From: Amycolatopsis lurida
GTDB taxonomy: Bacteria; Actinomycetota; Actinomycetes; Mycobacteriales; Pseudonocardiaceae
NCBI RefSeq assembly: GCF_900105055.1
Contig: NZ_FNTA01000004.1
Span: 7,223,501-7,287,500 of the forward strand
DNA: 64,000 nt
Direction: 5' to 3'
Positions 50,997 to 62,085 of the stretch are shown here, in pieces (position 1 is the first letter of the stretch; each line of letters begins with the position of its first letter). A program made the translations under genes and the position numbers. The notes below the pieces were generated by a model, which saw nothing but the letters and a program-made list of their open reading frames with translations, was not told where the DNA came from and did not search any database.

Positions 50997-51938
50997 TCAG
51001 AGGGGCCAGCGGGCGCGGACGATTCCGTCGTCGTCCGGTCGCACGGCCACGAGCAGTGGGTTGTGGCCGTCGGTGGTGTGCGGCAGGAGGATGGCCGCGC
51101 GTGCGCCGGCGAACGCTTCGGCCAGGCACGCTCGGTCATCGCTGTCGGCGTGGAAGCCGTGGATGCGGCCGTCCGCGTGCTTCAGGACGGCCCAGCCGGC
51201 GAAGTCCGGCGTAATCGTGCGTAGCACCGCTGGAACGTCTGTGGACAGGTCCGGCCACACGTTCAGCAGGGCGCGCGGTCCGAGGTCGGGCACGGCGTCG
51301 GCGGTGAGCAGATGCCAGCGGGAGAGATTGGCGACGACCTGTTCTTCCAAGAGGAGCCTGCCGTGCTGTGCCAGGAGTGCCGCCACCTCGGCCCAGAACG
51401 CCGCGTCGGCCGGAACCGTTTCGTACGGTCCGTCGGCCGGGGCGTAGGGCGAGGCGTCCAGGGGCTCGACGAACAACCCGCTCGCGGTGGTCAGCGTGAC
51501 CGCGTGTCCGCACGGTTGCTCGCTTCCGATGTACATGTACTGGTCGTAGCCGATGTGGACGAAGAACCGGTCTTCGGTCTCGAGCCGGCACCACGCGCCG
51601 TTGTCGCGCAGCATGACGCGCACCAGCTCACGCCCGACGTCCAGGGTGATCCGCGCGCCGTCGTGGTAGCCGGTGAGGTCGGCGGGGAACAGTCCGTGCA
51701 GTCCGTCGCCGTCGACGGGCGGCTCTGCTCCGAAGTGGACGAATCCATGGACCTCGGGGTCGCGGATGGTCAGCCGGGTCACGCCGGTGTCTTCGGCGAA
51801 GGCCGTCACGGCGGCGAGGTAGGCGGCCTCCACCGGACCGTGGTCGCTCGACACGTCCTCGGAACCGCGGTACGCGCCCCACTCGTCGCGATCGGCCGGG
51901 TCGTACTTGGTGATCCGGTAGACGTACGACGCGCTCAT
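50997..51938 (-). CDS. Conserved actinobacterial hypothetical protein
   Basis: A 313-residue soluble protein with the pattern YVYRITKYDPADRD, EDVSSDHGPVEAAYLAAVTA, DPEVHGFVHFGAEPPVDGDG, ELVRVMLRDNGAWCRLE and DQYMYIGSEQPC. I know this order from a family widespread in streptomycetes and relatives, but with no assigned function. No signal peptide or catalytic motif. It stands alone upstream (in strand sense) of nothing related. Confidence 0.78.
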   Translation of the reverse strand: MSASYVYRITKYDPADRDEWGAYRGSEDVSSDHGPVEAAYLAAVTAFAEDTGVTRLTIRDPEVHGFVHFGAEPPVDGDGLHGLFPADLTGYHDGARITLDVGRELVRVMLRDNGAWCRLETEDRFFVHIGYDQYMYIGSEQPCGHAVTLTTASGLFVEPLDASPYAPADGPYETVPADAAFWAEVAALLAQHGRLLLEEQVVANLSRWHLLTADAVPDLGPRALLNVWPDLSTDVPAVLRTITPDFAGWAVLKHADGRIHGFHADSDDRACLAEAFAGARAAILLPHTTDGHNPLLVAVRPDDDGIVRARWPL

Positions 51939-52116: not shown

Positions 52117-53544
52117 CTAGGCTGACGGCCACTGGGCGGTGAGCCGTTCCACCGCCGCCTCGATGTTGACCGCACCGGCTCCATAGGTCCGGATGCTGGC
52201 TTCGACCCGCGGAGTCACGTCGTCCGGCATGCCGACGGCCACCACGATCGCGTCGGGCCGGGCGGTCAGGGCCTCGGCCAGCCGGGCCGCTTGCCAAGGG
52301 GTCCGGTAAGCGTCCCTCACCACCAGCACCACCGGGCCGGTCGACGGCAAGACCACCGGGTCGTCTTCGGCGGCGAGCACCGCCGAGTGGGCAGCGCCGA
52401 GTTCGGTCAGCCGGTCGGCGAGGCTCCAGTGGGCCTCGCCCAGCGCGTTGCCGCCGGCGCGCAGTTCGACCACGAAGGCGGGAGCGGTCAACGCGACCGG
52501 TCCGTGGACGCGCAGCGCGCGCCGCGCGGCCTCGAGCCCGAGATCGCGCGGAGCGGCCAGAGCGCGCAGAGTGGAAACTCGCGTGGCCGCGGTTTCCAGT
52601 GTCTCCAAAGAAAGTGTGCCGGCGCGGACTGCTTCGGAGACCGACGCGCGGATGACCGCGCAGAGCTCCTCACCCTCGGTCGGGCCGAGCAGCAGCAGAT
52701 CCGATCCCGCCCGCAGGGCACGGACGGCCACCGCGCCGATGTCCTGGTTGCCTTGGCCCGCTTCGATGGCGATCGCGCTGGACAGCAGCACACCTTCATA
52801 GCCCAGCTCGTCGCGGACGAGGTCGTGGAGCAGGCGGCGGCTCAGCGTCGCCGGGTTGTCCGGGTCCAGTGCGGGATAGAGCACGTGGGCGGTCATCATC
52901 GCGTGGACGCCCGCCTTGATCGCCGACACGAACGGCGCCAGCTCGCGCTCGCGGAACGTCGCATCCGGAATGTCCACAATGGGCAATGCGTGGTGCGGGT
53001 CGGTCACCGTCGCGCCGTGGCCGGGAAAGTGCTTGGCGCAGACGGACACGCCACCGTCCTGCATGGACTCGATGAACGCAGCGCCGTGTGAAGCGACCAG
53101 ATCCGGCCGGGCGCCGAAGGACCGGACGCCGATGATCGGGTTGTCGGGATCGCTGTTGACGTCGATCGACGGGGCCAGGTTGAGGTTGACGCCGCAGGCC
53201 TTCAGATCCGCCGCGATGGCCGCGGCGACCTCGGCGGTCAGCGTCAGGTCGTCGATCTCGCCGAGCGCCAGGTTGCCCGGATACGCGCTGCCGGTTTCGT
53301 AGTCGAGGCGGGTGACGTCGCCGCCCTCCTCGTCCAGCGCGATCAGCGCGTCGGGCGCCGTCCGCCGTAGCGCGCGGGTGTGCCGGACGATCGCTTGCCT
53401 GCCACCGTCCAGATTGGCCGGGAACAGGGTGACCCCGGCGAGCCCGTCATCGAGCGCCGAATGCACCCAGGCCGGCGGTGCGGCCCCGGTGTACCCGGCG
53501 AGCAGGCAGGCGTTGACGAGCCGGTCCAACTCATTCACCGACAA
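52117..53544 (-). CDS. GH3-family protein lacking the catalytic nucleophile
   Basis: A 475-residue protein with the NagZ-like glycoside hydrolase 3 barrel: ALDEEGGDVTRL (70-80), KHFPGHGATVTDPHHALP (171-188, with the His of the acid/base loop), AHVLYPALDP and a C-terminal second domain. In NagZ the nucleophile Asp stands in an SD pair of the GVxxSDxL motif; here the motif is GVLLSSAIAI with Ser256 at that place. The protein may bind rather than cut N-acetylglucosamine-type sugars, or use another residue. It is the last gene of the nine-gene operon, overlapping the HAD gene by 14 bp. Confidence 0.85.
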   Translation of the reverse strand: MSVNELDRLVNACLLAGYTGAAPPAWVHSALDDGLAGVTLFPANLDGGRQAIVRHTRALRRTAPDALIALDEEGGDVTRLDYETGSAYPGNLALGEIDDLTLTAEVAAAIAADLKACGVNLNLAPSIDVNSDPDNPIIGVRSFGARPDLVASHGAAFIESMQDGGVSVCAKHFPGHGATVTDPHHALPIVDIPDATFRERELAPFVSAIKAGVHAMMTAHVLYPALDPDNPATLSRRLLHDLVRDELGYEGVLLSSAIAIEAGQGNQDIGAVAVRALRAGSDLLLLGPTEGEELCAVIRASVSEAVRAGTLSLETLETAATRVSTLRALAAPRDLGLEAARRALRVHGPVALTAPAFVVELRAGGNALGEAHWSLADRLTELGAAHSAVLAAEDDPVVLPSTGPVVLVVRDAYRTPWQAARLAEALTARPDAIVVAVGMPDDVTPRVEASIRTYGAGAVNIEAAVERLTAQWPSA

Positions 53545-54346
53545 CGGAGTTCTCCTTCGCGTAGAGCTGTTCGAGTACGACGGCGACGCCGTCTTCGCTG
53601 TTGCTGCCGATCACGTGGTCCACCAGTGCGAGCACGTCGGGATGAGCGTTGGCCACGCCGTACGCCGTACCTGCCCAGGACAGCATCGGCAGGTCGTTGG
53701 GCATGTCACCGAACGCGATCACGTCCGAGGCCGCCACCCCGCTCCGCGCGGCCAGCCGGGCCAGCGCGGCCGCCTTGTTCACGCCGATCGCGATCGCTTC
53801 GACCAGGCGTGAGCCGTTGGAGTGGTACGCGGCGACGAGCCCCTCCAAGGCCGGCTTGGCCAGCGCGAGGAGTTCGTCGGCGGACAGCGAGGGGTGCCTG
53901 CCGAGCAGCTTCGGCGCGGGCAGGCTCAGCAGCGTCGCGTCGTCGGCGCGTTCGATCGTGGCGCCGCGGTCCCATTCCCACGGCTCGTAAACCGAGTCCG
54001 CGACCAACCGGTCGGCGTGCTCCACGGCGATACCGATGCCGGGGATCGCCGCCCGCAGCCTGGCGACCGCTTCGGCCAGATCCGGGGTCGTGATGGCGTA
54101 TTCCTCGACGACCGTCCTGGTGTGCATGTCGTACAGGTAGGCGCCATTGGAGCAGATCGCGAGGCCCCGGTCACCGAATCGGCCGGCGATCTCCGCCACC
54201 AGCCGCGGTGGGCGGCCGGTGGCGACCACGAATTCGGCGCCCGATTCTTCGACGAGCGCGAACGCCGACACCGTGCGGTCGGAGATCGTGCCGTCCGGGC
54301 GTACCACCGTGCCGTCGAGATCCGTCGCCACCAGCAAGGGCGTCAT
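53531..54346 (-). CDS. HAD-superfamily phosphatase (Cof type)
   Basis: A 271-residue HAD-IIB phosphatase: motif I LLVATDLDGTVV (Asp8/Asp10 region), VVATGRPPR (motif II Thr), late NKAAALARLA (Lys) and motif IV FGDMPNDLPML. Such enzymes remove phosphate from sugar phosphates or nucleotides. ATG 54346 overlaps the glycosyltransferase stop (ATGA); the longer frame is a shadow. In this operon it may dephosphorylate a sugar intermediate. Confidence 0.88.
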   Translation of the reverse strand: MTPLLVATDLDGTVVRPDGTISDRTVSAFALVEESGAEFVVATGRPPRLVAEIAGRFGDRGLAICSNGAYLYDMHTRTVVEEYAITTPDLAEAVARLRAAIPGIGIAVEHADRLVADSVYEPWEWDRGATIERADDATLLSLPAPKLLGRHPSLSADELLALAKPALEGLVAAYHSNGSRLVEAIAIGVNKAAALARLAARSGVAASDVIAFGDMPNDLPMLSWAGTAYGVANAHPDVLALVDHVIGSNSEDGVAVVLEQLYAKENSVVGE

Positions 54347-56124
54347 GGAATCAATCCTTCGTCCGAGAACAATCCGGTCCAGGCGTCCCGGCTGGTCAGC
54401 CGCGGCAGCGCCGCGCGGTACCGCTCGCGGACGGCGGCGCCGTCGCGGATGAACCGGGTGAGCACTCGGGCGCCCTGGTACGCCAGCCGGACCAGGTGAG
54501 CCCGGTCGTACGTGCGGACGCGGACACCTCGTTGCGACGCGTCGGTCACCACCGCCGTGCGCAGCGCGCCGACCCGCCACCAGTCGGCCTCCGAAACCGG
54601 CACGGAGCCCAGGGCGAGCCGGTGCACGCCGAGCAACGGCCCGAGTGCCAGCCGGTCGAAGACACTCGGTTCGCTGATCGCGATGTCGTTCGACGCGAGC
54701 CCCGGGACGGCCGTCGGTGGATGCGCGACGGTCTCCGGATGGCGGGAACGCACCTCGCGGATCCGCGCCAGCGCCGCGACCCCGCCATCGCGCAGGATGT
54801 CCGGCCCGTCGAGAAAGTCCGACACCGCTTGGATCAGGGTCGCCGCGGCGCCGTATCGCATGCCCAGCAGCGAGGGGATCAGCTCGGCGAGCAGGGTTCC
54901 GGCGATCTTCAGCACCGGGAAATCGCCGTGCAGCGCCGAGATGATCGTGTAGTTGCGCAGGATGAAGTACCGATTGAGCTCGTCGGAGTCCTTCCACGGG
55001 AAGTCGGTGTGCCACAGGCCCGCGCCCGGCAGTGTCACCGTCGGGAATCCGTGTGCCCGTGCCCGGTAGGAGTACTCGGCGTCGTCACCCTGGAAGAAGA
55101 GGGGGAGCGGATAGCCGGTCTCCTTGACCACCTCGTACGGGATCAGGCACGCCCACCAGCCGTTGTAACCCGCGTCGACGCGGAACTCCTGCCGGTACGG
55201 CCTGCCGGTGGCCGGATCCGTGGCCAGCAGGTCGACCGCGTGCAGGCTGTGCCGGATCGGCATGCCCGGCCGGATGCCGTCCAGGTCGGTGTACTCGGCC
55301 GCCGCGTGCAACCGCGTGGGGTGCAGCAGGTTCAGCATCTGGCCGCCGAGGATCAGCGGTTCCGCCGTGGACGCCGAAAACGCCGTCATCCGGACGAGCA
55401 GGTCGGGTTCCAGCACGATGTCGTCGTCCATGAACAGCATGTTCACGTTCTCGCCGTCGACCTCGTACAGGCCGCGCGTGAAACCGCCCGCGCCACCCAG
55501 GTTCGGCTGCCGCAGGTACCGCAGCTTGCCCGGCGGCAGAACGCCCTCGGCCGGCACCGGGTCGGTGCCCTGATCGACGACGTACACGGCGTGCACCGTG
55601 GCCTGCGCCAAGTCGTCATCGGCGATCGCGGTCAGCGTGGCGAGGCAGTCGGCCGGGCGGTTCATCGTGCAGATGGTCACCACCGTCGGCCGTGACCGCT
55701 CCGCCGCCGGAACCGTCCAGCGCACGTCGCGGACGACAAGCCGTTGGCCCGGTTCGGTTTCCCAGTCCAGCCACAACGCGCCGCCGTCGACGAACCGGTC
55801 GAGGGGGGCGACCAGCGAGATCGGCCCGCCGTCCACCACCCGCGCCGCCACCACGCGCGGCTCGCCCTCGAAGTCCGACGCCAGCAGGGAAACCGTGCCG
55901 GAACCAGCGGCCTCCAGTCCGACCTCGACGACGCCGGCCGTCGTCCAGCGCTGCCAGTAGCTGGCCGGGAACCGTCCGAAGTACGTGTTGCCGGAGACCT
56001 TCGACGCGGATTCGAGGGTGAGTGTGGTCCGCTCGCGGCGAGCGCCGCCCGAGACGACCTGAACGTAGAGATCCTTGCCGATCACCCCATCGGGCCCGGC
56101 GAACAGCCCGCGCTGCGCGATCAC
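54343..56124 (-). CDS. GT2 glycosyltransferase, GlfT2-like
   Basis: A 593-residue transferase starting at the GTG that overlaps the upstream stop. Residues about 1-145 form a beta-rich front domain (GNTYFGRFPASYWQRWTTAG). The GT-A domain follows: VVTICTMNRPADC, the DxD motif in MLFMDDDIVL, YNGWWACLIPYEVV, FFQGDDAEYSYRARAHGFPT and the LWHTDFPWKD His. This order matches GlfT2, the galactofuranosyltransferase of mycobacterial cell-wall galactan. Whether the donor is UDP-galactofuranose here is not known; the setting with Dcd-like and AurF-like genes is unlike a galactan locus. Confidence 0.85.
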   Translation of the reverse strand: MIAQRGLFAGPDGVIGKDLYVQVVSGGARRERTTLTLESASKVSGNTYFGRFPASYWQRWTTAGVVEVGLEAAGSGTVSLLASDFEGEPRVVAARVVDGGPISLVAPLDRFVDGGALWLDWETEPGQRLVVRDVRWTVPAAERSRPTVVTICTMNRPADCLATLTAIADDDLAQATVHAVYVVDQGTDPVPAEGVLPPGKLRYLRQPNLGGAGGFTRGLYEVDGENVNMLFMDDDIVLEPDLLVRMTAFSASTAEPLILGGQMLNLLHPTRLHAAAEYTDLDGIRPGMPIRHSLHAVDLLATDPATGRPYRQEFRVDAGYNGWWACLIPYEVVKETGYPLPLFFQGDDAEYSYRARAHGFPTVTLPGAGLWHTDFPWKDSDELNRYFILRNYTIISALHGDFPVLKIAGTLLAELIPSLLGMRYGAAATLIQAVSDFLDGPDILRDGGVAALARIREVRSRHPETVAHPPTAVPGLASNDIAISEPSVFDRLALGPLLGVHRLALGSVPVSEADWWRVGALRTAVVTDASQRGVRVRTYDRAHLVRLAYQGARVLTRFIRDGAAVRERYRAALPRLTSRDAWTGLFSDEGLIP

Positions 56125-57191
56125 CGGCACACCTCGGCGGTCACGGCCGCCAGGCCTGCGGCGGTCCCGGACAGCGGGAACCGGGCCGCGTTGCGCAGTC
56201 CGGCCGCACGCAGGTCCGTCAACGCGCTGTCGTCCTTGGCCAGGAGACGGACGGTGTCCGCGAGCGTGGACCGGGTGAACCGCAGCGCCGAATCGCCCAG
56301 CACCTCGGTCAACCCCGGCACCGGCTGATACGCCACCGGCAACCCGCAGGCCTGCGCCTCGACCGCGACGAGCCCGAACGCTTCCAACGTCGTCGACGGC
56401 ATCACGAGCAGGTCGTGCCGCGCGAAGGCCTGCCACAACGCGGGGCGGTCGAACCAGCCGAGGTAGTCGACTTGAGTCGTGTCCACCGGTAGTGCGGCGA
56501 ACTCGTGCTCGGGAGCCGCGACGCACAACGTCACGCCGGGCAGCCCCGTCAGGTCCGCGATCAGCTCGGCCGCCCCCTTCTCCGCGGTCAGCCGCCCGGC
56601 GTACAGCACCCGGAAGCCGTCCCGCGTCCCGGGCCGCGGCGGCGGCGAGTGCAGCAGCCGATCGGGGATTCCCCATGGCACGTGCACGATCCGCTTCGGT
56701 TCGACCGGCGTGACCTCGCGCAGGAGGCCGGCCATCGCCGAGGTCGGCACGACGACCGCGCCTGTCGACGCGGCGGCTTCGCGCAGCACGTCACGCTGGG
56801 TGGGATGCTCGGCCGCGAAGAGCAGATCGGTGCCGTGCACCAGGGCGATCCGCGGATGGTCCGGGAACGCACGGAGCAACGCGGGCGTGGCACCGAAACT
56901 CAAGTGCTGCCAATGCACCGCGTCGAAATCGGCCGGATCGAACCGACGTCGGATCGCGGTCGCCAACGCGTCCACATAGGACCAGAATCCCGGACCGTCG
57001 AGCTGCTTTCCCGGCACGTCGAGCAGGTGCGGCCCGCCGGGCTGCGCGCCGGAGCCGAGCATGAAGACGTCGGCCGCGATCGGCGCTTCCGGCGCGAGGT
57101 AGAGATCCTTGAGGAGCTCGACGCTCCCGCCGGGGCTGCCCGGCGGGAGGTCGATCCCGGTCAGTGTCTTCGGTGTCTTCGGTGTCTTCAC
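56121..57191 (-). CDS. GT4-family glycosyltransferase
   Basis: A 356-residue GT-B enzyme. The N-terminal half has GSPGGSVELLKDL (acceptor/nucleotide loop); the C-terminal half has VLYAGRLTAEKGA, DYLGWFDR and the donor site STTLEAFGLVAVEAQACGLP with the E-x7-E pattern. The first ten residues (KTPKTPKT) come from a 9-bp tandem repeat, so the start may be variable. It overlaps both neighbours by 4 bp and probably adds the first or second sugar of the product. Confidence 0.87.
   Translation of the reverse strand: MKTPKTPKTLTGIDLPPGSPGGSVELLKDLYLAPEAPIAADVFMLGSGAQPGGPHLLDVPGKQLDGPGFWSYVDALATAIRRRFDPADFDAVHWQHLSFGATPALLRAFPDHPRIALVHGTDLLFAAEHPTQRDVLREAAASTGAVVVPTSAMAGLLREVTPVEPKRIVHVPWGIPDRLLHSPPPRPGTRDGFRVLYAGRLTAEKGAAELIADLTGLPGVTLCVAAPEHEFAALPVDTTQVDYLGWFDRPALWQAFARHDLLVMPSTTLEAFGLVAVEAQACGLPVAYQPVPGLTEVLGDSALRFTRSTLADTVRLLAKDDSALTDLRAAGLRNAARFPLSGTAAGLAAVTAEVCR
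57166..57189. repeat. 9-bp tandem repeat at the start of the GT4 gene
   Basis: The unit GTCTTCGGT is present 2.7 times. It encodes the KTP repeats at the N-terminus of the glycosyltransferase. Because the unit is a multiple of three, changes in copy number would not shift the frame. Confidence 0.7.
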
Positions 57192-57712
57192 GACAGTTCC
57201 TCGTACAGCCGGGAAATGTCGATACCGGACGTGCTCGTGTACTTCACGCCGACGTGCTGATAGCTCGCCAGGGACCCGTGCGCGACCAGGAAGATGATCT
57301 TGCCGAAGGTCATCAGCGGATAGACCCGGACCGGCCTGGCCACCCTGATCTCCAGCGTCCAGTTGATCGCGTGGCCGACGTGCCCGAGCGGCGCCGAGAC
57401 ATGGACCCAGATACCGAGCCCGCCGATCGTGTGGTCACCGTTGATCATCTGCGCGTAGCGCTCGGAACGTGTCCGCTCGTGGGTGACACCGAGGTACAGC
57501 CGCCCCGGCTCGAGCACCAGCCCCTCGGGCGGGATGACGAGTTCGGTGAACGGGGTCGACCTCGCCGCGTCCAGCTCCGTGTCGAAGACGCGCATCTTCT
57601 CGCCGAGGCGCCAGTCGTACGCGTTGGGCGACAACCGGTCCGGCTCGAACGGGTCGATCACGATGTCCCCGCTCTCCAGTGCCTTCTCGATCGCCTTGCG
57701 GGTGAGGATCAC
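57188..57712 (-). CDS. Dcd/dUTPase-like protein A (has catalytic Glu, lacks RSS motif)
   Basis: A 174-residue protein of the dCTP deaminase fold: ILTRKAIEKALESGDIVIDP, then LSPNAYDWRLG and late WTLEIRVARPVRVY. Glu121 in INWTLEI aligns with the catalytic Glu138 of E. coli Dcd. The other conserved element, the RSS loop of the neighbouring subunit (GRSSxxRxG), is replaced by GDHTIGGLG (92-100). GTG 57712 overlaps the stop of the second Dcd-like gene (GTGA), so both are made in step. Alone it should be inactive; a shared active site with protein B is a testable idea. Confidence 0.85.
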   Translation of the reverse strand: MILTRKAIEKALESGDIVIDPFEPDRLSPNAYDWRLGEKMRVFDTELDAARSTPFTELVIPPEGLVLEPGRLYLGVTHERTRSERYAQMINGDHTIGGLGIWVHVSAPLGHVGHAINWTLEIRVARPVRVYPLMTFGKIIFLVAHGSLASYQHVGVKYTSTSGIDISRLYEELS

Positions 57713-58239
57713 GACGTGACCGCCACCCGGTCGCGCCAATAGCGGGATTCTTGCGGGCCGACCGCCGACTGGTACTTCCCCGCGTAGAGATCGATCTCAC
57801 CGGAGGACACGAAGAACATGATCTGGCCGATCTTCATGCCGTGGTAGACCCGCAACGGCTGCACGGGGGAGAGCATGAGCGTCCACTGGCCGTGGAAACC
57901 GATGTCCCCGATCGGTGCGGTGATCTCGACGAACAGCCCGAGCCTGCCGACCGAGGACCGGCCGAACAGCAGCGGCACGTAGATGTCCGAGCCGATGCGC
58001 TCCTCGGTGTGCCCGAGATAGAGCTGGTCGGGCTGGAGCACGTACCCGTCCTCGGGCAGCTGGATCGTCTCGGTCGGGTTCGGGTGGTAGGCGTCGACGA
58101 CCTTGTCCCGATAGGACATCAGCGTGCCGCCGAGCTTGACGTTGTAGCTGTTCGGGTTGACCTGGTCCGGGCTGAACGGGGAGATCGCGATCCGGCCGTC
58201 GGTCACCGACTCGGTGATCTCGGGCCCGGTCAGGATCAT
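57709..58239 (-). CDS. Dcd/dUTPase-like protein B (has RSS motif, lacks catalytic Glu)
   Basis: A 176-residue Dcd-fold protein: MILTGPEITESVTDGRIAIS, NPNSYNVKLG, then GRSSVGRLGLFVEITA (93-108) with Arg94, Ser95, Ser96 and Arg99 as in active deaminases. The position of the catalytic Glu holds Met122 (GQWTLMLS). It lies directly in front of the partner gene and overlaps the AurF-like gene by 4 bp. Dcd enzymes are trimers with sites between subunits, one side giving the RSS loop and the other the Glu, so A and B have complementary defects. Confidence 0.87.
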   Translation of the reverse strand: MILTGPEITESVTDGRIAISPFSPDQVNPNSYNVKLGGTLMSYRDKVVDAYHPNPTETIQLPEDGYVLQPDQLYLGHTEERIGSDIYVPLLFGRSSVGRLGLFVEITAPIGDIGFHGQWTLMLSPVQPLRVYHGMKIGQIMFFVSSGEIDLYAGKYQSAVGPQESRYWRDRVAVTS

Positions 58240-59204
58240 TTGACGCCGCCCTTGGCCGTCACGAAGTGATACTTCACCTTGTCTTCGATCCCGAGGTCCC
58301 GCAGCAGCCGGTGCACCGTGGCGAAGTCGTTCATCATGACTTCGCCGTCCTCCTTGGCTCGGCAGTCGGCGATGATCTCGTCGACGTGCTCGATACCGGC
58401 GAACCGGAGCACCTGCGGCCACAGCTCGTAGTCCTCGGCGCCGAACGCGGTGATCGCCTCGGGGAGGTACCGGATGAAGAACTCCTGCCGCTCCGGCTCC
58501 AGTTTCGGGTAGATCTCCTTCATCAGTTCGGCCAGCACGGGACCGTGCGCCGCCTCGTCGCGGGCGTGCAGCCGGGCGATGAGCGCGTGCATCGGCTGGA
58601 TGGACTTGTCGCCGGCCAGCAGGTCGAGGAAGGCGTTGATGCTGACCTCGCCGACGACCGTCCACATGAGATAGAGCAGATCGCGCTGCCACTGCTCGTC
58701 CATGCTCTCCGCGAGCGCGTAGAGCCTGCGGTTCGTCACCGGCTCCACAAAGGACTCTTCGAGACCGATCCCGCGTGCCTCACGGGTGCGCTGCATCGCC
58801 ATCATGTGCATGTAGGTGTGCCACACCTCGTCGATATGGGACTGCTGGACGACTTCCTTGACCTCGTAGCGGTCGACACCGGGGAAGACGCCGTGCGCGA
58901 GCTTCTCGAAGGTCGGGTTCGCCACGTGTTCCTCGGCGGCGATGACGCGCTCGTTGTAGGCGATCCACGCCAGCGTGTTGACGAGCAGCCGCTGCTCGTC
59001 CGACGCTTCGAGGAACCGCGGGTGCTCCGAGAACGGCATGAGGTGCAGCGGGTAGTCCAGCAGGCTGGGATCGTATTCGCCGGGGTTGACCACTCCGGCC
59101 ATGTCGGTGCGGATGGTCGCGCGCTTGGGCCAGGCCGCTGCCAGCCTGCGCAGCATGCTCGGTCCGACGTGGGTCTCCGCAAGCTCGATGGGATGCATCG
59201 TCAT
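58236..59204 (-). CDS. AurF/CmlI-type diiron N-oxygenase
   Basis: A 322-residue helical diiron protein. The seven ligands of AurF (Glu101, Glu136, His139, Glu196, His223, Glu227, His230) reappear with identical spacing as Glu91, Glu126, His129 (EVWH), Glu186 (VVGEVS), His213, Glu217 and His220 (HARDEAAH). AurF-type enzymes turn amines into hydroxylamines, nitroso or nitro groups with oxygen. ATG 59204 overlaps the deacetylase stop; ATG 59198 is an alternative. In this operon an amine freed by the deacetylase would be a natural substrate; that is inference. Confidence 0.9.
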   Translation of the reverse strand: MTMHPIELAETHVGPSMLRRLAAAWPKRATIRTDMAGVVNPGEYDPSLLDYPLHLMPFSEHPRFLEASDEQRLLVNTLAWIAYNERVIAAEEHVANPTFEKLAHGVFPGVDRYEVKEVVQQSHIDEVWHTYMHMMAMQRTREARGIGLEESFVEPVTNRRLYALAESMDEQWQRDLLYLMWTVVGEVSINAFLDLLAGDKSIQPMHALIARLHARDEAAHGPVLAELMKEIYPKLEPERQEFFIRYLPEAITAFGAEDYELWPQVLRFAGIEHVDEIIADCRAKEDGEVMMNDFATVHRLLRDLGIEDKVKYHFVTAKGGVK

Positions 59205-60271
59205 CTCTCTCCTGTCGCGAAGTTCGGGGTCACCAGGTCTTCGACGCGGACGAACTCGAGTCCGCGGGCCAGTAGTCCTTCGATCACCGACGGCAAGGCG
59301 GTGACGGTCTGGGAACGGTCGCCGCCACCGTCGTGCATCAGCACGATCGAGCCGGGAATCGTTTGCCGCAGCACGGTTCGCGCGATCACCTCCGGGCCGG
59401 GCATCGCCCAGTCCTCGGTGTCGACGTCCCACAGCGCGAGCCGCGCGCCGAGGTCCGTCAGCGAGCGGAGCACCGCGGGGGTCCGTGATCCGTAGGGCGG
59501 GCGGAAGAACGCGGGCACGGCGCCGAAAGCGTCCGCGATCACGTCGCCGGTCCGGTTGAGCTGGTCGGCCAGCTCCGTCGCCGAGAGATCCGGAAGATAG
59601 GGATGGGACCACGTGTGATTGCCGACGCCATGGCCCTGTTCCGCCATCCGCCGCAGATCTTCGCCGCGCGCGCCCGCGTTCAGCCCGACACAGAAGAAGG
59701 TGGCGCGGACCCCGTAGGACTCGAGAATGTCGAGGATCCGCCCGGTGTACGGAGGATGCGGGCCGTCGTCGAACGTGAGCGCGATCTGCCCGCGGGTCCG
59801 GTCGCCGTGCTCCAGTGAGCGCCCGGCCGCGGTCATCGCGGCCAGCGCTTCGTCGCTGGAGGCCATCGCCGCGTGATGTTCGTCCAGCCGCCCGGTGAGC
59901 GAACCCGACTCGATCTTCAAGCGCACCAACGAGCCGGGATCTCGCCACGCCGCGCGCGCCAGCTCGACGGCGGGCACCGAGCCGAAACCCGGCCTCGGCG
60001 GCAGGATGGCCGGGTCGGCGCGGTACATGTCCAGGCCGGCGGCCATGAAACCGCCGTCGAGCATGCCGTTGGTGCTGTCGACGACCGCGGTCACCGAGCG
60101 GCCGAGGCCGTTCAGATAGGACGCGATCTCCTTGCTCCGGTCCGCGGCGAACCGCACGGCCGGCCGGTCACCGTGCCCGTTCCCGTCGAGGACCGCGATC
60201 TCGAAACCCGAGGCGGTCCAGCCGATTCCGGCGTACAGCATCGATTTACCCCCATGGTGCGTGTCACTCAA
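59201..60271 (-). CDS. NodB polysaccharide deacetylase with RNase-H-like front domain
   Basis: A 356-residue protein. Residues about 162-345 are a complete NodB domain: LTFDDGPHP (Asp168/169), NHTWSHP (His219, His223), FRPPYG, WDVDTEDW and VLMHDG. These zinc enzymes deacetylate N-acetylglucosamine-type residues. Residues about 11-110 (LYAGIGWTASGFEIAVLDGN, TAVVDSTNGMLDGGFMAAGL) resemble the RNase-H-like start of IS110 transposases, but with Gly in place of the first catalytic Asp (YAGIGW for YAGIDW). No signal peptide is seen, so it acts in the cytoplasm. It overlaps both neighbours by 4 bp. Confidence 0.85.
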   Translation of the reverse strand: MSDTHHGGKSMLYAGIGWTASGFEIAVLDGNGHGDRPAVRFAADRSKEIASYLNGLGRSVTAVVDSTNGMLDGGFMAAGLDMYRADPAILPPRPGFGSVPAVELARAAWRDPGSLVRLKIESGSLTGRLDEHHAAMASSDEALAAMTAAGRSLEHGDRTRGQIALTFDDGPHPPYTGRILDILESYGVRATFFCVGLNAGARGEDLRRMAEQGHGVGNHTWSHPYLPDLSATELADQLNRTGDVIADAFGAVPAFFRPPYGSRTPAVLRSLTDLGARLALWDVDTEDWAMPGPEVIARTVLRQTIPGSIVLMHDGGGDRSQTVTALPSVIEGLLARGLEFVRVEDLVTPNFATGER

Positions 60272-61473
60272 TCCAGTCCGGCTGTGGTGAGGTGCCTGGC
60301 GGTCGCCCGCCGGACGACGACCGGTCCGGCGATGGCGATCACCGCCGCGAGCAGGCCGGGTACCACCATGGCGGTGCCCAGCGAGGTGGCGTCGGCGAGC
60401 GGGCCGATGACCGCGGGCCCGCCGAGCTGCCCGGCGTAGGCCATGGTGGTCACCCAGGAAAGCGCGCGCCCGACGTTCGCGCCACCCGCGCCGACGGCGC
60501 TGAAGATCGCCGGTACGACGGTCGCCAGACCGGCCGCCACGACCACCCAGCCGACCAGGCCGAAAGCCAGCCGTGCCCCGGGAAGCAGCGGCGCGACGAG
60601 AACGAGCGCGTACCCCAGCACGGCGACCGATCCCGCGTACCGCATCCAGCTCGCCGGGTTCACCTTCGACCGGATCCGGTCGGCGGTGAGCCGGGAAACG
60701 GTCAGCGCGGCGGCGAACGCCGTGTACGCGAACGACGCCGTCGCCGGATCCGCGCCGAGCATTCCTTGCGCGTGCAGGGAAGCCCAGCTGTAACCGGCGC
60801 CCTCGCTGACGAAACCGGCCAGTGCGACCAAGCCGAGCAGCATGATGGTGCTCGTCGGCAGCCCGGCGGAAGAGACGACCGGGTCATCCGTCACCTCGCC
60901 TTGTGTCTTGCCGGTCAGCAAATGCTTGCCGGGCAAGAGAAACAGTGCTGCCGCGACCACACCGGCGCCGACCATCAGCGCCGGGCCACCCGTTTCGAGA
61001 TGCAGGCCGATGGTGATCGTGAGGCCGCCGGCCACTCCTCCCAGGCTCCACACCCCGTGGAACGCCGACATGATCGAGCGTCCGTAGCGGGTTTCCACCT
61101 CGACCGCGTGGCCGTTCATCGCGACGTCCAAGGAGCCGAGCGCACCGCCGAGCACGAACGCGGCGACCAGCAGTACCGGAAAATTCGGGGCCAGCGCGGG
61201 GCCGAGCAGCGTGAGCGCCGCGACGGGCGCGATCACCCGTAACACCGCGCGGCTCGACCAGGCGTCGGCCAGCCGCCCGGCCACCGGCATGCAGGCCATC
61301 GAGCCGAGCGCGGTGCTCAGCAGGACCAGCCCGATCCGGCCTTCGCCGAGGTGGAGCCGGGCGTTGATCGACGGCAGTGACGCGCTCCAGACGGCGCAGA
61401 TCAAGCCGCAGAGCCCGAAAACGCCCATCACGGCCAATCTGGCGCGACGAACGGCGGGCTCGGGACGCGTCAC
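60268..61473 (-). CDS. MFS transporter, first gene of the nine-gene operon
   Basis: A 401-residue major facilitator with about twelve helices: VFGLCGLICAVWSASLPSIN, LADAWSSRAVLRV (loop 2-3 motif), GALGSLDVAMNGHAVEVE and FHGVWSLGGVAGG, a pattern like the FucP/YbjJ-type group. It starts at GTG 61473 behind GAAGGAAG and overlaps the deacetylase gene by 4 bp. It is the first gene after the operator at 61592 and could export the product or import a sugar precursor. Confidence 0.87.
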   Translation of the reverse strand: MTRPEPAVRRARLAVMGVFGLCGLICAVWSASLPSINARLHLGEGRIGLVLLSTALGSMACMPVAGRLADAWSSRAVLRVIAPVAALTLLGPALAPNFPVLLVAAFVLGGALGSLDVAMNGHAVEVETRYGRSIMSAFHGVWSLGGVAGGLTITIGLHLETGGPALMVGAGVVAAALFLLPGKHLLTGKTQGEVTDDPVVSSAGLPTSTIMLLGLVALAGFVSEGAGYSWASLHAQGMLGADPATASFAYTAFAAALTVSRLTADRIRSKVNPASWMRYAGSVAVLGYALVLVAPLLPGARLAFGLVGWVVVAAGLATVVPAIFSAVGAGGANVGRALSWVTTMAYAGQLGGPAVIGPLADATSLGTAMVVPGLLAAVIAIAGPVVVRRATARHLTTAGLD

Positions 61474-61653: not shown

Positions 61654-62085
61654 TCACCGTTCGAGCGGCGTCGCGAGCAGGGCGCGCACGGCCGCCAGCT
61701 CGTCGTCACCTTTCACCGAGGCGACCCAAGGCCTCGTCAAATGATCACCCGCCCTCCTGGGCACCAGGTGGACATGAAGGTGGAAGACGTCCTGCCAGCC
61801 GGCGGATCGGTTGGCCTGGAACAAGGTCAATCCGTCCGGCCGCAGCACTTCGCGGATCCGGGCGGCCATCGAGTGGACGGTCCGCATGACGGCGGCCGCG
61901 CCCTCGGCGGAGATCTCCCAGATGTCGGCGGCATGGGCCCGGGGTATCACCAGGGTGTGTCCCGGCGTCACGGCGGTGTGGTCGAGGAACGCGATCGTGG
62001 TCTCGTCCTCGAACAGTACGCGCCCGGTGTCCTGCCGGCCGGCCGCGATCTCGCAGAAAACGCAAGCGGTGTCGGTTTCGTCCAT
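61654..62085 (-). CDS. HIT-family hydrolase
   Basis: A 143-residue histidine triad protein. CVFCEIAAG (zinc-type front), GHTLVIPRAHAADIW and the triad HLHVHLVPR (HxHxHxx) identify it. HIT proteins split nucleoside phosphoramidates or dinucleotides such as ApnA. It lies upstream of the nine-gene operon on the same strand but is separated from it by the operator, so it is probably separately expressed. Confidence 0.9.
   Translation of the reverse strand: MDETDTACVFCEIAAGRQDTGRVLFEDETTIAFLDHTAVTPGHTLVIPRAHAADIWEISAEGAAAVMRTVHSMAARIREVLRPDGLTLFQANRSAGWQDVFHLHVHLVPRRAGDHLTRPWVASVKGDDELAAVRALLATPLER

Follow-up and report, generated by a model that had tools for sequence, protein, structure and literature searches.

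The window analysed here, a stretch of 64,000 nucleotides from the 9.05-Mb, four-contig genome of Amycolatopsis lurida, carries at positions 52117-61473 nine genes which all lie on the minus strand. Two neighbouring genes of this operon encode proteins resembling dCTP deaminases (Dcd), named DcdB and DcdA in the following. Matches to Pfam and NCBIfam profiles place the nine genes in the same families as a first-pass annotation of the bare sequence had done. Together with a tenth gene further upstream they are, in the direction of reading:

61654..62085, minus strand, HIT-family nucleotide hydrolase/transferase (PF01230, 77 bits), core gene
60268..61473, minus strand, MFS transporter of 401 amino acids (PF07690, 55.6 bits)
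59201..60271, minus strand, NodB/CE4 deacetylase (PF01522, 124 bits, residues 157-278)
58236..59204, minus strand, AurF-like diiron N-oxygenase of 322 amino acids (PF11583, 125 bits)
57709..58239, minus strand, DcdB, dCTP-deaminase-like (PF22769, 142 bits; exactly 141.6)
57188..57712, minus strand, DcdA, dCTP-deaminase-like (PF22769, 91 bits; exactly 90.7)
56121..57191, minus strand, GT4 glycosyltransferase (PF00534), core gene
54343..56124, minus strand, GT2 glycosyltransferase of 593 amino acids with GlfT2-like domains (PF17994, 75 bits; PF19320, 73 bits), accessory gene
53531..54346, minus strand, HAD-IIB (Cof-type) phosphatase (PF08282, 154 bits; TIGR00099, 138.7 bits with a cut-off of 137)
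52117..53544, minus strand, GH3/NagZ-like protein (PF00933, 217 bits)

The first-pass annotation had counted seven overlaps of 4 base pairs (bp) and one of 14 bp, and took all junctions to be translationally coupled. Five overlaps of 4 bp are secure and free of start-codon ambiguity (AurF/DcdB, 58236-58239; DcdB/DcdA, 57709-57712; DcdA/GT4, 57188-57191; GT4/GT2, 56121-56124; GT2/HAD, 54343-54346), and the remaining three depend on the start codon chosen. The MFS/NodB overlap requires TTG 60271 as start of NodB, which gives a protein of 356 amino acids. An in-frame ATG at 60241 gives the more likely length of 346 amino acids, beginning with MLYAG and aligned with the starts of the orthologs (MLYAG, MLYSG, MLYAG). 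Because of this conserved start we favour the ATG, which leaves a gap of 26 bp to the MFS gene instead of an overlap. The NodB/AurF overlap is present if AurF starts at ATG 59204 and absent if it starts at ATG 59198, and the 14-bp overlap of HAD and GH3 requires TTG 53544. Coupling at all junctions is thus plausible but was overstated. The list of nine genes was also incomplete as a unit, since it left out the HIT gene, which lies on the same strand 180 bp upstream of the MFS gene and is a member of the conserved set.

To follow the operon in other genomes we scanned 84,980 species genomes and added family-wide searches and gene calling. Among 60 sampled relatives, four other Amycolatopsis, including A. 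regifaucium (98% identity of AurF) and A. xylanica (94%), have AurF proteins of 82-98% identity, and all four possess the nine genes in identical order with the HIT gene just upstream of the MFS gene. Measured against the most diverged of these four, the ratio of nonsynonymous to synonymous substitution rates (dN/dS) is 0.19-0.34 for all ten genes, with 0.24 for DcdB and 0.31 for DcdA. Because of the kept order and these ratios we discount a chance arrangement, and the concern that the gene order might be unique to this genome is removed. A conserved order across actinomycetes, for which the first-pass annotation had proposed to search, does exist: in full in Amycolatopsis, and as the core AurF-DcdB-DcdA-GT4-HIT in other genera. 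This core is found in Planotetraspora (L016), Nonomuraea typhae (L017), two Actinomadura (L018, L019), a further genome of the Streptosporangiaceae family (L049) and five loci of the Streptomyces family (L022, L023, L027, L053, L054). There are 15 loci of this AurF type in total, the five Amycolatopsis included, and their accessory genes differ between genera: NodB is present in Amycolatopsis, L016, L017 and L049, and GH3 in Amycolatopsis, L016 and L017. The defining part of the cluster is hence smaller than the nine-gene list, and it includes HIT. Sampling of AurF across the phylum yielded only a relative of 33% identity. A comparison of the gene combination with described cell-wall or antibiotic loci gave no match in the open-access literature, in agreement with the earlier remark that no described pathway is known to combine an N-oxygenase, paired Dcd-like proteins and a galactofuranosyl-type transferase. 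The operon is real and conserved, is undescribed in that literature, and is most likely a specialised-metabolite cluster.

The Streptomyces core adjoins YcaO, two nitroreductase-like proteins, a FAD enzyme, a P450, an O-methyltransferase and a CutC-like protein. The YcaO and nitroreductase-like genes, and an EF-G/TetM-like gene near the Actinomadura clusters, were assigned to the local context because they do not recur across genera. Downstream of the operon in the window lies a gene for 313 amino acids (50997-51938, minus strand) without a match in Pfam or NCBIfam; in none of the four other Amycolatopsis was it seen next to the cluster.

As read from the alignments, the most informative feature of the operon is that the two Dcd proteins have lost active-site residues in a complementary way, which the first-pass annotation did not mention. 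Both proteins score well above the 27-bit cut-off of PF22769. According to an AlphaFold2 model (predicted local distance difference test score, pLDDT, 82) DcdA has the Dcd fold, matching the M. tuberculosis Dcd 4a6a with E=2.5e-12 and a template modelling (TM) score of 0.83; the alignment behind this model and behind the DcdA profile consists of DcdA sequences apart from one DcdB row (L065). Active-site residues were read from the alignment to solved Dcds and are given in E. coli numbering. The window DcdB keeps the GRSSVGR motif II (Arg110, Ser111, Ser112, Arg115), Asp128 and the Gln of motif IV, and has Met in place of Glu138. The window DcdA keeps Glu138 and has lost Asp128 (His), the aromatic residue 131 (His) and the motif IV Gln (Lys). 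In the AurF/GT4 lineage motif II of DcdA is also lost, reading GDHT, as in the window protein, or GDRS, with Gly or Ala instead of Arg115; outside this lineage it is retained except in L085, L086 and L095, so that in some lineages DcdA has Ser111 and Arg115 as well. The pairing is present in at least 32 bacterial loci, and all 32 scored pairs show the same division: DcdA has Glu138 and lacks Asp128, and DcdB has Asp128, Ser111 and Arg115 and lacks Glu138, this position being Met in the AurF/GT4 lineage and Gln elsewhere. None of the 64 paired subunits combines Ser111, Arg115, Asp128 and Glu138.

DcdA and DcdB each form a monophyletic group (support 0.96 and 0.91) apart from the housekeeping Dcd, which suggests one old duplication; the residue losses are a small number of events that selection has maintained. 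Ten genomes that were tested, this one among them, have exactly one further Dcd-like gene each, presumably the housekeeping gene, and the one of this genome has all the catalytic residues; among the genomes tested, two extra Dcd copies occur only in those bearing the pair. The pair also occurs in other genomes of the Pseudonocardiaceae family, on plasmids of Streptomyces, Nonomuraea, Nocardiopsis and Embleya, in three of 373 further genomes sampled from the class, and, with the same complementary residues, on two Rhizobium plasmids (L097:7496-8525, L098:8001-9057). A phage origin of the pair is unsupported: no phage Dcd reaches 60% identity (the best listed 34-37%), most of them being labelled dCTP deaminase or dUTPase, and no AurF relative was found on viral contigs.

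A trimeric dUTPase places the base and deoxyribose of its substrate in motif III of subunit A, and motifs I, II and IV of subunit B grip the phosphates. The Asp of motif III forms a hydrogen bond with the deoxyribose hydroxyl, and the sugar stacks against a conserved aromatic residue (PMC3905902; PMC12524310). The homotrimeric core of Dcds is the same, and their three active sites lie in the clefts between subunits (PMC4827122). Since sites of the superfamily join one subunit's motif III with the motifs I, II and IV of the next, DcdA and DcdB most likely form a heteromer with composite sites, a nucleotide enzyme of a kind that is unreported in the open-access papers searched. Glu138 is required for deamination, and the E. 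coli Glu138 variants with bound nucleotides in the PDB (1xs4, 2j4q) are in keeping with its catalytic role. DcdA would contribute motif III with the catalytic Glu, and DcdB motifs II and IV, which grip the triphosphate, together with the Ser and Arg of the reaction centre. A functional site would then exist solely at the A-B interface where motif III of DcdA faces motifs II and IV of DcdB, the reverse orientation being dead.

That DcdA and DcdB form a homotrimer each, with new functions that differ, and are adjacent only through inheritance of the operon seems very improbable to us. In several lineages DcdA has motif II as well as Glu138 and could there work as a homotrimer. In the AurF/GT4 lineage, however, a DcdA homotrimer would lack the motif that binds the triphosphate and a DcdB homotrimer the catalytic Glu, and in the scored set neither occurs without the other. 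The loss of catalytic residues from each subunit could also mean that the pair lies off the biosynthetic path and serves self-protection or regulation, by binding or destroying a toxic nucleotide analogue or by sensing a nucleotide; the NUDIX, HIT and second CTP synthase genes nearby fit such a protection, too. We regard this as unlikely, because Glu138 of DcdA and Ser111 and Arg115 of DcdB are invariant rather than decaying and jointly make up one complete set.

In L089, L090, L091, L093, L094 and L096 a plasmid operon of Streptomyces, Nonomuraea and Nocardiopsis comprises a P-loop kinase, DcdA, DcdB, a methyltransferase, sugar-nucleotide genes and GT4, in some cases with a cytidine-deaminase-like protein after DcdB or with HAD at the end; it shows variations, and no kinase was called in L096. 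N. typhae has two CTP synthases, one of them within the cluster, and ten other genomes tested have one each. The cluster copy (L017:15352-16950) keeps the overall sequence and lacks 15 residues of the two housekeeping copies aligned with it. Some pair loci adjoin PPDK-like proteins. In L087 and L107 the pair and GT4 have an EPSP/MurA-like protein as neighbour, and loci of this type carry a metallophosphoesterase; L088 combines the pair with genes for a PIG-L deacetylase, a metallophosphoesterase-like protein, GT4 and HIT. On the Rhizobium plasmids (L097, L098) the pair adjoins a methyltransferase and a NUDIX gene, with a metallophosphoesterase nearby. Each of the 14 AurF-type loci with called genes has GT4 next to the pair, as have L087, L088, L107 and L108, and the HIT motif HLHVHLVPR is present in 14/14 AurF-type loci. 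The common theme is therefore the Dcd pair, usually with GT4, and phosphate-handling enzymes, with NodB and AurF optional. The kinases, cytidine-deaminase-like proteins, GT4s, phosphatases and the one extra CTP synthase point to pyrimidine-nucleotide chemistry rather than to a cell-wall pathway.

This constant theme also leads us to favour a nucleotide-derived specialised metabolite over the glycoconjugate or amino-sugar pathway of the first-pass annotation. As we weighed that pathway, GT4 and GT2 would transfer sugars, NodB would deacetylate, AurF would oxidise the amine and the Dcd proteins would only tune nucleotide supply, which we consider doubtful. It gains from the conserved motifs of NodB and GT4 and from the occurrence of two unrelated deacetylase families, NodB and PIG-L, in clusters with the pair and GT4. 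Further, the AurF relatives of L020, L021 and L024, which are nested in the Dcd-linked AurF clade and lack the Dcd pair, have genes for Gfo/Idh/MocA, DegT aminotransferase, inositol-phosphatase-like, NUDIX and MFS proteins as neighbours. These clusters possibly encode an N-oxidised amino-sugar or aminocyclitol pathway, and the Gfo/Idh/MocA, DegT and inositol-phosphatase-like genes make such a compound a possible substrate of AurF. However, the pair is the most widely common element and has diverged sites of its own, unlike a supply enzyme, a housekeeping Dcd is already present in each tested genome, and NodB, GT2 and GH3 are optional across the loci. A role of AurF confined to amino sugars is weakened, too, as more distant AurF relatives sit beside class-III aminotransferase, glutamate-mutase-like or polyketide-synthase-like genes. 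What stands of the earlier proposal is an uncharacterised, conserved pathway with a CE4 deacetylase and an AurF-like protein, both intact in their motifs, and an amino sugar as a possible component.

For the remaining proteins, PDB relatives of NodB, GT4, GH3 and HIT were used to place the motifs. NodB has the CE4 motifs TFDDG, HxxxH and RPPYG; TFDDG, HTWSH, RPPYG and HDGGGD are invariant in seven homologs. Its predicted structure (pLDDT 79) found only CE4-type matches in a fold search, mostly through the C-terminal domain. Residues 1-150 form an extra N-terminal domain, kept in homologs and without a Pfam match, which is modelled as beta-beta-beta-alpha-beta-alpha-beta-alpha, the order of an RNase H-like fold. 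In the AurF-like protein E91, E126, H129, E186, H213, E217 and H220 are invariant in 15 homologs; they correspond to what we take to be the AurF ligand positions E101, E136, H139, E196, H223, E227 and H230, so that all seven diiron-ligand positions are intact. The MFS protein, with orthologs of 72-92% identity in the four Amycolatopsis and close relatives only in clusters of the Amycolatopsis type, is probably an exporter. The GT2 protein has both Glft2_N and domain 3 above the Pfam cut-offs, galactofuranose transfer itself being only putative, and the genome has a second Glft2_N copy. Its gene occurs only in the Amycolatopsis clusters and is absent from the other loci, and so a galactofuranosyl-type transferase no longer counts as a defining part. 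The GH3-like protein falls short of PRK05337 (183 bits, cut-off 207) and aligns LSS with the VTD of the template, with Ser where the catalytic nucleophile Asp is expected. Because this Asp is missing in 6/6 homologs as well (SS or ST instead), a normal hydrolase role is unlikely; we rejected the protein as an activating glycosidase, and its place in the pathway has become doubtful.

Taking these points together, we read the operon as a specialised-metabolite cluster with a heteromeric, dCTP-deaminase-like DcdA:DcdB at its heart, acting with GT4, HIT and HAD, and give this reading a probability of about 0.58. The heteromer, its reactions and substrate, the order of steps and the product we infer as follows. 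Both deoxyribose-reading residues of DcdA are His, and the substrate is therefore probably not an ordinary deoxynucleoside triphosphate; a ribonucleotide, for instance CTP, or a pyrimidine nucleotide with a modified sugar would be candidates. GT4 would glycosylate the pyrimidine nucleotide that results, and HIT and HAD would trim it. In Amycolatopsis, NodB would free an amine on the added sugar and AurF would oxidise an amine to a hydroxylamine, nitroso or nitro group; an N-oxidised amino sugar is a possible part of the product. GT2 may attach another sugar and MFS would export the product.

Several observations weigh against this reading. The key Dcd substitutions are few inherited events, and the agreement of 32/32 pairs measures conservation and does not represent independent tests. 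Four lineages (the kinase-linked plasmids, L083/84, L088 and Rhizobium) have a DcdA that retains motif II, and composite sites are consequently not obligatory there, and the Asp to Asn exchange in motif I of DcdB in the AurF/GT4 lineage is unexplained by supply from a neighbouring subunit. A CTP synthase gene from a single genome is thin evidence on the substrate. Finally, AurF is present in clusters without NodB, and its relatives in L020, L021 and L024 occur without the pair, so that AurF and the pair need not share one molecule as substrate. In a bolder form DcdA:DcdB would be a new heteromeric pyrimidine-nucleotide enzyme which uses ribonucleotides or which, in place of water, brings an amine or hydroxylamine to C4 in a substitution, and it would define a whole class of unrecognised nucleotide-glycoside natural products of actinobacteria and rhizobia; this appears distinctly unlikely at present.

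If the heteromer is real, nature would here have divided a homotrimeric enzyme clearly between two paralogs that depend on each other, and neighbouring Dcd paralogs of which one lacks Glu138 and the other Asp128 could serve as a sequence tag for mining uncharacterised biosynthetic clusters on chromosomes and plasmids. The annotation as dCTP deaminase in these clusters is probably misleading, as DcdB passes the NCBI equivalog cut-off of TIGR02274 (96.2 bits, cut-off 92.8) without the catalytic glutamate, and DcdA, with Glu138, falls below it at 66.4 bits. L087:10001-10537 and other DcdB-type proteins carry this label despite the absent Glu, a probable misannotation.

Among known systems, the dCTP deaminases and bifunctional dCTP deaminase-dUTPases of E. 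coli, M. tuberculosis, M. jannaschii and B. halodurans (4xjc) have the same fold, motif layout and PF22769 domain. However, these are homotrimers with the full residue set in each subunit, and here the set is divided between two paralogs. The monomeric herpesvirus dUTPases come close to the model proposed for the pair: their units are duplicated and only one composite site is kept, to which one domain contributes motif III and the other motifs I, II and IV (PMC12524310). They differ in being fused, eukaryotic-viral and hydrolysing dUTP, whereas the pair is deaminase-like and lies in biosynthetic clusters. The tandem two-domain Dcd of Agrobacterium (PDB 2r9q), a chain of 370 residues and thus about twice the usual length, is a structural match to the DcdA model, but it is a single chain and the DcdA profile barely detects it (E=0.54). 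The AurF p-aminobenzoate N-oxygenase (3chh, E=4e-79) is a homolog of the window protein over its whole length with all diiron-ligand positions in common; with 316 bits against the NF045603 cut-off of 620 the window protein is nevertheless not AurF proper. The logic of mycothiol and bacillithiol synthesis, where the GT4 enzymes MshA or BshA are followed by a de-N-acetylase, likewise brings a GT4 and a GlcN-type deacetylase into one cluster, but the window GT4 scores only 38 bits against MshA and 32 bits against BshA, far under the cut-offs.

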